In this document: piece by piece, positions 8,215 to 43,316 of the stretch
Numbering within the stretch: position 1 is the first letter of the stretch
Layout of the letters: each line of letters starts with the position of its first letter
Source of the DNA: Sphingomonadales bacterium Ga0077559
GTDB taxonomy: Bacteria > Pseudomonadota > Alphaproteobacteria > Sphingomonadales > Sphingomonadaceae
Reading direction: 5' to 3'
DNA: 64,000 bases
NCBI GenBank assembly: GCA_001464315.1
Contig: LNFK01000065.1
Coordinates: 1-64,000 of the forward strand
The notes under the pieces: generated by a model
Told to the model about the DNA's origin: nothing
What the model saw: the letters and a program-made list of their open reading frames with translations, nothing else
Databases searched by the model: none
Made by a program: the position numbers and the translations under genes

Positions 8215-8249
8215 AAAACGGCATCGCCTTTTCAGGCGATGCCGTTTTT
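8215..8249. terminator. bidirectional intrinsic terminator between convergent genes
   Basis: Perfect 14-bp stem AAAACGGCATCGCC-TTTTCA-GGCGATGCCGTTTT with A/T tracts on both sides. Confidence 0.85.
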
Positions 8250-26920: not shown

Positions 26921-27295
26921 TTAACAGGGATAGCGCTTCTTCATCATCTCAGCGAACGCCGTCTTCACAGAAATCTGTTTGCGTTGTGTTGCGCTATATG
27001 TCCGGAAATGGGCGAGCAAATCATCCGACTTTAATGCTGCCTTCGTTGGCGGGCAGCTGTGTGGCGGTAGCTTTTTTGCTTTGTCGGATTTGATCCGGGC
27101 CCGGTATTCCTCGCCGGCCGCTTTGCCTTCGGCCTTGAGAACTCCGATATCGGACGATGCCAGCGCCAACATACCTTTGGCCTTTAGAGCGTCGGCCTTT
27201 GCGAGGAATGTCTCGACCTTCATGTCGCCCGCTGCCGATATTGCAGGCGAACATATTAGCAGTGCCATCATGGCCACCAAACCAGATTTAATCAC
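26921..27295 (-). CDS. small secreted protein, tandem paralog of the 26450-26812 product
   Basis: GTG start preceded by GGAGGG; signal peptide; MKVETFLAKADALKAKGMLAL...HSCPPTKAALKSDDLLAHFRTYSATQRKQISVKTAFAEMMKKRYPC. Confidence 0.65.
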   Translation of the reverse strand: MIKSGLVAMMALLICSPAISAAGDMKVETFLAKADALKAKGMLALASSDIGVLKAEGKAAGEEYRARIKSDKAKKLPPHSCPPTKAALKSDDLLAHFRTYSATQRKQISVKTAFAEMMKKRYPC

Positions 27296-27375
27296 AAACC
27301 CTCCATTCGCTTCACGCAAACAGAGGGTTATGAATTGGTCGATGAACTACAAATTAATCCGACGCCAGGATGTCG

Positions 27376-41261: not shown

Positions 41262-41720
41262 ATGAGCACCATCACCCCAGCCGAACTAGCGACCAAAGTC
41301 GGCGAGCAAATCGGCACGTCCGAATGGATATTGGTCGATCAGGGCATGATCAACAAGTTCGCAGATGCAACAGGCGACCACCAGTTTATTCACGTCAATG
41401 AAGAGATGGCGAAAATGACCCCGTTCGGCGGAACCATCGCCCATGGTTTTTTGACGCTGTCGCTGTTTCCGGTGATGAGCGCAAAGTCTGATTGCCCCAA
41501 GATCGAAGGCGTCAAAATGGGCGTAAATTACGGTGGCAACAAAACGAGGTTCCTGTCGCCTGTCCGTTCAGGCAAGCGGGTGCGCGGTCATTTCAAATTG
41601 CTTGAGCTTACCGAAAAGCGCCCCGGCCAATGGCAGCAAACATTGGAGTTTACGGTCGAGATCGAAGGCGAAGACAAGCCCGCCTTGCAGGCCGAATGGA
41701 TCAGCCAGTTTTTCGTATAA
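41262..41720 (+). CDS. MaoC family dehydratase (R-specific enoyl-CoA hydratase type)
   Basis: FADATGDHQFIHVNEEMAKMTPFGGTIAHGFLTLSL. Confidence 0.94.
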   Translation: MSTITPAELATKVGEQIGTSEWILVDQGMINKFADATGDHQFIHVNEEMAKMTPFGGTIAHGFLTLSLFPVMSAKSDCPKIEGVKMGVNYGGNKTRFLSPVRSGKRVRGHFKLLELTEKRPGQWQQTLEFTVEIEGEDKPALQAEWISQFFV

Positions 41721-41744: not shown

Positions 41745-42923
41745 ATGCGTGATGCAGTCATCGTTTCAACCGCCCGTACCGCCATCGGCAAAGCCTATCG
41801 CGGCGGGTTCAATGCAACTTCCGGACCAACCCTAGGCAGCTATTCGTTGAAGGCCGCTGTTGAGCGTGCCGGCATCGACGGCGCGGAGGTGGACGACGTG
41901 CTTTGGGGTTCGGCACTTCAACAGGGTACCCAGGCAGGTAACCTCGCGCGTCAGGTTCTTCTGCGTGCTGGTTTGCCAATCACCACTTCCGGTATGACGA
42001 TGGACCGTCAGTGCTCGTCGGGCCTGATGTCGATTGCGACGGCCGCAAAGCAGATTATCGTGGACAATGTCGATATCATGGCGGCTGGCGGTCAGGAATC
42101 GATCAGCCTCGTCCAGACCAAGGAAATGCGCGTTGCGCCCGACCGCGATTTGATTGCGATGCACCAGAATGTCTATATGCCGATGCTGCAAACCGCCGAG
42201 GTCGTCGCCAAGCGGTACAATATCAGCCGCGACGCGATGGACGAATATGCCCTGCAATCGCAGCAGCGCACCGCCGCCGCACAAGCCGCCGGCTATTTCG
42301 ATGCAGAGATCGTTCCTGTCACCACGACGATGAACGTGACCAACAAGGAAACCGGCGATGTAACTCAGAAAGAGGTGACCATCGCCAAGGACGAAGGCAA
42401 TCGCGCCGATACGCAGCTTTCCGGTTTGCAGGCACTGCAACCCGTGCTCGGCCCAGACATGACCATCACCGCAGGCAACGCAAGCCAGTTGTCCGATGGT
42501 TCTTCGGCGAGCGTGCTTATGGAAGCCAAGGTTGCCGAGAAAAAGGGCCTCAACCCGCTTGGCCGCTACGTCGGCATGGCGGTCGCTGGCACCGAGCCAG
42601 ACGAAATGGGCATTGGTCCGGTTTACGCCATCCCCAAATTGCTTCAGCGGTTCGGCCTCGAAATCGACGATATTGGTATCTGGGAACTGAATGAGGCGTT
42701 CGCGGTGCAGGTCCTCTATTGCCGCGACAAATTGGGCATTCCGAACGAACTGCTCAACGTCAACGGTGGCTCCATCTCGATTGGCCACCCCTACGGCATG
42801 ACCGGCGCGCGTTGTACCGGCCATGCGCTGATTGAAGGCAAAAGACGCGGGGCCAAATACGGCGTCGTCACGATGTGCGTCGGCGGCGGCATGGGTGCGG
42901 CTGGATTGTTCGAGATTTTCTAA
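41745..42923 (+). CDS. acetyl-CoA C-acyltransferase (thiolase)
   Basis: [54 protein letters not shown]. Confidence 0.96.
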
Positions 42924-42944: not shown

Positions 42945-43238
42945 ATGAGCGCTGTAGGCGTAATCGCGACATTGACCGTCGCAGAGGGCAAGAATGCCGA
43001 GTTTGAAGCAGTGTTCGCTGAACTATCGGCGGCGGTGAACGCCAATGAACCGGGCAACGAATTTTATTCGCTGACCCGGTCAAAAGCCAATCCGCAAATT
43101 TACAAAGTGCTTGAACGTTATGTTGATCAGGCTGCCTTGGACGCGCACGGTAAAACCGATTATTTCCGTGCCGCGGGTCCAAAGCTCGCACCCTGTTTGG
43201 CAGCAGCGCCCGATATCGAATATCTGGACGCCTTTTAA
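42945..43238 (+). CDS. putative quinol monooxygenase (ABM domain)
   Basis: GVIATLTVAEGKNAEFEAVFAELSAAVNANEPGNEFYSLTRSKANPQIYKVLERYVDQAALDAHGKTDYFR. Confidence 0.9.
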   Translation: MSAVGVIATLTVAEGKNAEFEAVFAELSAAVNANEPGNEFYSLTRSKANPQIYKVLERYVDQAALDAHGKTDYFRAAGPKLAPCLAAAPDIEYLDAF

Positions 43239-43261: not shown

Positions 43262-43286
43262 GGAACACCTTCGTGCATTGTTCGTT
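43262..43286 (+). promoter_or_regulatory. EcfG (general stress sigma factor) promoter
   Basis: Exact GGAAC (43262-43266) - 16 nt - CGTT (43283-43286), 27 bp before the start of a general-stress-type gene. Confidence 0.75.
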
Positions 43287-43316
43287 TCCTGTGTACCCCA
43301 CAGGAGACGAACAATG
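43276..43316 (+). promoter_or_regulatory. 18-bp inverted repeat enclosing the SD and start codon of the pyridoxamine-oxidase-fold gene
   Basis: CATTGTTCGTTTCCTGTG - TACCC - CACAGGAGACGAACAATG; all 18 positions pair (one G-U in RNA); right arm contains AGGAG and ATG. Confidence 0.85.

Follow-up and report, generated by a model that had tools for sequence, protein, structure and literature searches.

The transposase genes of IS10 and IS50 are guarded against transcripts impinging on the mobile element: such transcripts fold the transposase ribosome site into hairpins whose arms come from the element's end, and transcripts from the genes' own promoters do not. In phage T4, the early read-through mRNAs of gene e (lysozyme), soc, 49 and I-TevI fold up the ribosome site and the mRNAs from the late promoter are without the 5' arm; for gene e, whose late promoter encodes the 5' strand and whose hairpin occurs in related phages, a 100-fold effect on lysozyme was measured (PMC3014915). 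The general stress promoters of Alphaproteobacteria have been described separately. Mapped SigT starts of Caulobacter have the motif at -34/-35, with GGAAC-N16-TGCT at -34 as a stated case (PMC4287350). In Sphingomonas melonis Fr1, a gene for general stress protein 26 (GSP26) is EcfG-dependent, with GCAAC...CGTT 34 nt ahead of the coding sequence (PMC6599016), and in Sphingopyxis granuli, where EcfG promoters carry several -10 boxes (CGTT, TGTT, GGTT, CATT), the gsp promoter served in EcfG in vitro transcription (PMC7083833). Here we analyse a locus of a Sphingorhabdus-type genome, whose nearest named relatives are Sphingorhabdus, at which an EcfG-type promoter overlaps a long hairpin that covers the start of a GSP26-family gene. 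The whole 64-kb stretch of DNA that was analysed is referred to as the window.

A stress gene with an EcfG-type promoter and a hairpin at its start

By sequence, the encoded protein is a clear member of the General stress protein 26 family (PF16242; PDB 3u34, 3dmb): among solved structures its best match is PDB 3u34/3u35, annotated 'General stress protein' (E 5e-61), and GSP26 (3dmb) was also matched. Compared with this family the protein is ordinary, and the novelty is confined to its leader. The gene lies downstream of a co-directional run of three genes (Table 1), the last of which ends 23 nt ahead of GGAAC and 37 nt ahead of the left hairpin arm. No terminator-like site was found between the ABM gene and the hairpin, in agreement with the proposal of an earlier note on this DNA that transcripts could run in from the maoC-thiolase-monooxygenase genes. 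The hairpin itself was considered as an intrinsic terminator and rejected, since its stem is not followed by a U-run and the stretch between the genes holds no terminator-like site.

Table 1. Features of the stress gene locus (window coordinates)
Feature	Position	Strand	Basis or remark
MaoC-like dehydratase, first of the co-directional run	41262..41720	+	domain match
Thiolase (acetyl-CoA acyltransferase), same run	41745..42923	+	
ABM-domain monooxygenase-like gene, co-directional, upstream; candidate source of read-through	42945..43238	+	PF03992
EcfG-type -35 element GGAAC	43262..43266	+	sequence; position kept in orthologs
Left (anti-ribosome-site) arm CATTGTTCGTTTCCTGTG	43276..43293	+	its DNA comprises promoter spacer, -10 and the bases just ahead of the predicted start
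EcfG-type -10 element CGTT, within left arm	43283..43286	+	sequence
Hairpin loop, 5 nt; predicted EcfG start about 43296 inside	43294..43298	+	Caulobacter SigT spacing
Right arm CACAGGAGACGAACAATG	43299..43316	+	holds Shine-Dalgarno AGGAG (43302-43306) and ATG (43314-43316)
General stress protein 26 / Pyrid_ox_like FMN-binding-fold gene, 167 aa	43314..43817	+	PF16242, E 5e-34

The promoter motif is an exact GGAAC-N16-CGTT with 27 nt from CGTT to the ATG, as the earlier note had read it. Across the genome, the exact pattern GGAAC-N16/17-CGTT has 54 matches, fewer than its reversed control; the pattern alone is not rare, and was rejected as stand-alone evidence. The significance of the promoter comes instead from its conserved position in orthologs. 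Scored as G[GC]AAC-N15-17-NG[CT]T at -47 to -63 from the ATG, an EcfG-type motif is present in 87/102 alphaproteobacterial orthologs, with about 0.4 expected in all from shuffled leaders, and in 0/18 orthologs from the Gammaproteobacteria, a class known to lack EcfG. In relatives, TGTT, GGTT, CGCT and TGCT occur as -10 variants, and the orthologs of Reyranella and other Rhodospirillales-type records (L090-L096, L098, L105, L107) have GCAAC-N16-CGTT, not GGAAC, in this position. PhyR, NepR and the ECF sigma factor are encoded side by side in this genome (phyR-nepR-ecfG), which, together with the conserved promoter position across Alphaproteobacteria, supports the assignment to EcfG made in the earlier note.

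Two departures from this pattern were observed. Xanthomonas and Luteimonas (Gammaproteobacteria, L110-L142) carry a close ortholog (about 60% identity) that lacks the EcfG motif, which suggests that the gene was transferred without its promoter. In one metagenome-assembled genome (L009, same locus as L067), the -35 reads GAAAC, a decayed form of GGAAC, and the hairpin is intact; this gene may therefore have lost EcfG control yet kept the lock.

The hairpin is an uninterrupted stem of 18 bp, with 17 Watson-Crick pairs and one U-G, and its right arm contains both Shine-Dalgarno and ATG, as had been claimed. Its predicted folding energy is -35.3 kcal/mol, with z = -8.2 relative to dinucleotide shuffles. 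No other non-self-overlapping short-loop inverted repeat of the window is as long, and it is present once in the genome. The predicted cost of opening the start site, 25.9 kcal/mol, is the highest of the 36 window genes tested (mean 9.7, sd 4.6). A search of the leader against Rfam returned no family near its gathering score. At the genome level, where the stretches around motif matches were covered, a comparable hairpin was found at this gene only among 27 candidate EcfG starts, and the idea that such hairpins are a general feature of EcfG genes was rejected.

Two other structures of the window deserve mention. A gene for a 124-aa protein with no Pfam match (26921-27295, minus strand) has its start buried in a strong hairpin, AACCCTCTGTTTGC...GCGAATGGAGGGTT, in the leader 27270-27350 (z -4.7, predicted opening cost 23.6 kcal/mol); no EcfG motif was seen immediately ahead of it. 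The other, at 8215-8248, resembles a bidirectional terminator: a perfect inverted repeat of 15 bp whose ends are an A-tract and a T-tract.

Pairing and gene context in related species

Judged from ortholog leaders, the hairpin is conserved as pairing, not as sequence, in about 20 related species. In Sphingorhabdus and in Erythrobacter/Porphyrobacter, ribosome site, start codon and first codons have their pairing partner in the spacer/-10 region, with sequences that are genus-specific. The left arms of the other Sphingorhabdus (L006-L010; weaker in L011) are GGTATCGCTTGTTA-like and pair with ATGGCGAGCGATACC, which spans the ATG and codons 2-5; the Shine-Dalgarno is covered by an inner stem, CACTTCC/GGAGTG. 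In Erythrobacter/Porphyrobacter (L070-L081, L083, L086, L143) CTCCGCGTCGGCGCTAG pairs with ATGGCGACCGACGCGGAG. The register in this window is shifted relative to that of its sister species: there is a copy of ACGAAC on either side of the ATG, and it is the upstream one with which the left arm pairs. Three close congeners (L003-L005) have a 6-bp inner stem only, their left arm still lying upstream of the expected start. Beyond these genera, a locus of another genus (L149) carries CATGTTTCGTCTCCAC / GTGGAGACGAAACATG, a perfect repeat of 16 bp whose end is the ATG; in one placed outside Sphingomonadales in the tree (L114), the repeat measures 26 nt.

Compared with shuffles of the left region only, 23/123 leaders reach z <= -3, most of them between -4 and -8, and the hairpins of single orthologs exceed left-arm shuffles at z of about -3 to -8. 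The outer pair of the Erythrobacter hairpin covaries, being U-A in 6 sequences and C-G in 4, at the wobble base of a synonymous Glu codon; in this alignment 93% of the cells are paired, and both-side changes number 8 versus 3.2 in shuffles (0/500). For decisive pair counts, the Sphingorhabdus alignment alone has too few sequences and a register shift. In a swap test, own arms out-paired swapped arms, with 0/20000 permutations doing as well for 12 representatives and 6/20000 within Sphingorhabdus; no excess was seen for 56 alphaproteobacterial loci without a strong hairpin, and the gammaproteobacterial control was likewise above chance (1/5000). This test is inflated by relatedness and is supportive only. 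Since the control also exceeded chance, we placed more weight on the left-arm shuffles and on the synonymous-site covariation. The earlier note had named conservation and covariation of the left arm in relatives as a check of its proposal, and pairing is indeed kept in two genera, with covariation.

Strong hairpins occur at 19/25 loci with a close upstream thiolase or ABM gene versus 4/76 without, and the long hairpin is absent in 6/25 orthologs despite the close upstream gene. In most Erythrobacter/Porphyrobacter, the thiolase directly precedes the promoter, its stop codon lying 1-3 nt ahead of GGAAC and only about 10 nt from the left arm, and in L003-L005 the thiolase is 231-527 nt away. The link between hairpin and operon context is not phylogenetically independent, with 3 usable pairs on the tree; the correlation was set aside, as the counts are strong but the tree pairs too few. 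On the tree, the hairpin probably dates back to the ancestor of the Sphingorhabdus-Erythrobacter clade (20/25 members; branch support 86), and is lost or weakened in L003-L005, L011 and L088. Two loci (L078, L086) have a large extra palindrome (e.g. CTGGAGCGGTTGGTCCGATGCAATCGGATCGACCGCTCCAG) between thiolase and promoter, about 60-110 nt upstream of the ATG, which is possibly a second insulating element.

Predicted start site, a probable promoter-choice switch and its alternatives

Counted from GGAAC as in the SigT promoters of Caulobacter, the EcfG start is predicted near 43296, inside the loop, in line with the earlier expectation of a start in or just before it. The predicted opening cost of the start site depends on the 5' end of the RNA: 26.1 kcal/mol if the RNA begins at or before 43262, 2-3 kcal/mol for 5' ends at 43290 or later, and 2.3 kcal/mol at 43294-43296. 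A similar scan of 23 strong orthologous loci gave a median cost of 18.6 kcal/mol for 5' ends up to GGAAC+12, 5.7 at +32 and 3.5 at +36. In 37 loci, the loop centre lies 4.5 +/- 1.9 nt from GGAAC+34, despite GGAAC-ATG spacings of 49-60. On average it is 4.5 nt downstream of the expected start, and the EcfG mRNA of many relatives would therefore retain a few nucleotides of the inner left arm. The median predicted opening costs of read-through versus EcfG RNA are 15.5 vs 5.6 kcal/mol with thiolase/ABM close upstream (n = 23), 12.1 vs 4.3 with the thiolase farther off (n = 13), 8.3 vs 5.1 in other contexts with GGAAC (n = 45), and 7.9 vs 5.5 at loci without GGAAC (n = 42).

We consider it likely that promoter choice acts here as a translational switch that insulates the stress gene against read-through, the read-through mRNA being silent and the EcfG mRNA translated. 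Polymerase arriving from the maoC-thiolase-ABM genes would make an mRNA with both arms, which would fold into a very stable hairpin hiding Shine-Dalgarno and ATG, leaving the stress gene untranslated. Under stress, EcfG would initiate near 43296, in or just before the loop, to produce an mRNA without the left arm and with a free ribosome site near the 5' end, which would be translated. The start is taken from the spacing in a relative, and we infer both the silence of the read-through mRNA and the translation of the stress mRNA. As a corollary, the untranslated read-through RNA might be exposed to Rho or to decay. If this is true, a cell can place a stress gene last in a metabolic operon with neither a terminator nor leaky expression, and translation of a message depends on which promoter made it. 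RNA-seq coverage would then be misleading, as reads mapped to the gene would, without stress, be no sign that the protein is made.

Stress genes are commonly regulated through structure at the ribosome site, and the hairpin could regulate the stress transcript itself, from a start upstream of 43276, as a thermometer, as the target of a protein or small RNA, or as a general brake on translation. We regard this as unlikely, because the GGAAC spacing places the start in the loop and the leader matches no Rfam family. The thermometer form was rejected on energy: no melting is predicted at physiological temperature, and even at 60 C opening would cost a predicted 18.7 kcal/mol, which makes a thermometer implausible.

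Long perfect stems are known to guard 3' ends or to be cut by RNase III, and this one comes just after the upstream stop codons; it could thus be mainly a 3'-end stabiliser or a processing site of the thiolase/ABM mRNA, with its overlap with the start of the stress gene as a by-product. Such a role is very improbable, since the right arm keeps to the ribosome site, the ATG and the first codons, the loop keeps to the expected start, and L114 has the same design without that upstream thiolase. There is equally little to recommend translational coupling, in which ribosomes finishing the upstream gene would open the hairpin and the stress gene would be translated from the operon mRNA in proportion to that gene. 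The short distance between thiolase stop and left arm in Erythrobacter/Porphyrobacter would suit it, but here the 37 nt that separate the ABM stop from the left arm are beyond the footprint of a terminating ribosome, and yet the hairpin is among the strongest. Least probable of all is a palindrome of mutational or DNA-level origin, with no selection at the RNA level (template switching, or an operator or cruciform at the start site): template switching can create perfect short-loop palindromes and the register of the arms differs from that of the sister species, but the pairing persists in about 20 species with differing sequences and covaries at a synonymous codon, and a protein operator would keep its sequence conserved. 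Each of these alternatives (thermometer, 3' stabiliser, coupling, mutational palindrome) fails at least one observation.

Beyond the promoter-choice switch at this gene, we raise, only tentatively, the possibility that translational insulators can evolve in bacterial chromosomes, built from an alternative-sigma promoter whose -10 and -35/-10 spacer also serve as the antisense arm to the ribosome site and first codons of the gene downstream. The identity of the sigma factor would be read out at translation, because the arm is lost once that promoter fires. Such an insulator would have arisen more than once (in the Sphingorhabdus/Erythrobacter lineage, in L114 and possibly in L149), wherever a stress gene came to stand last in an operon lacking a terminator.

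Comparison with known systems

The likeness to IS10 and IS50 ends at the purpose and origin of the arms, as no mobile element was seen here. With the EcfG (SigT) promoters described in Alphaproteobacteria (PMC6599016, PMC7083833, PMC4287350), the locus shares the GGAAC-N16-CGTT-type motif, the flexible -10 and the GSP26-family target; no RNA-structure layer at such promoters was found in the literature searched. The closest match in design is T4 gene e: both arms are present in the read-through RNA only, the gene-proximal promoter encodes the 5' arm, and transcription starts past this arm, the start here being predicted. Likewise, a helix over Shine-Dalgarno and AUG is predicted in the longer RNA, the -10 lies inside the left arm, and the pairing is conserved. 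The differences are that the gene is a bacterial chromosomal one, that the promoter is an EcfG stress promoter instead of a T4 late promoter, and that the right arm often reaches codons 2-7, with covariation with the coding sequence; the 100-fold effect is that of T4, and the effect here is predicted from sequence. No bacterial chromosomal precedent for a sigma-linked start silenced in read-through mRNA was found in the open-access literature searched. T4 gene e, soc, 49 and I-TevI already show the principle, and what would be new is a chromosomal, sigma-factor-linked case with coding-region covariation. The principle described in T4 would here be tied to a global bacterial stress regulon, and is backed by the covariation with the coding sequence.
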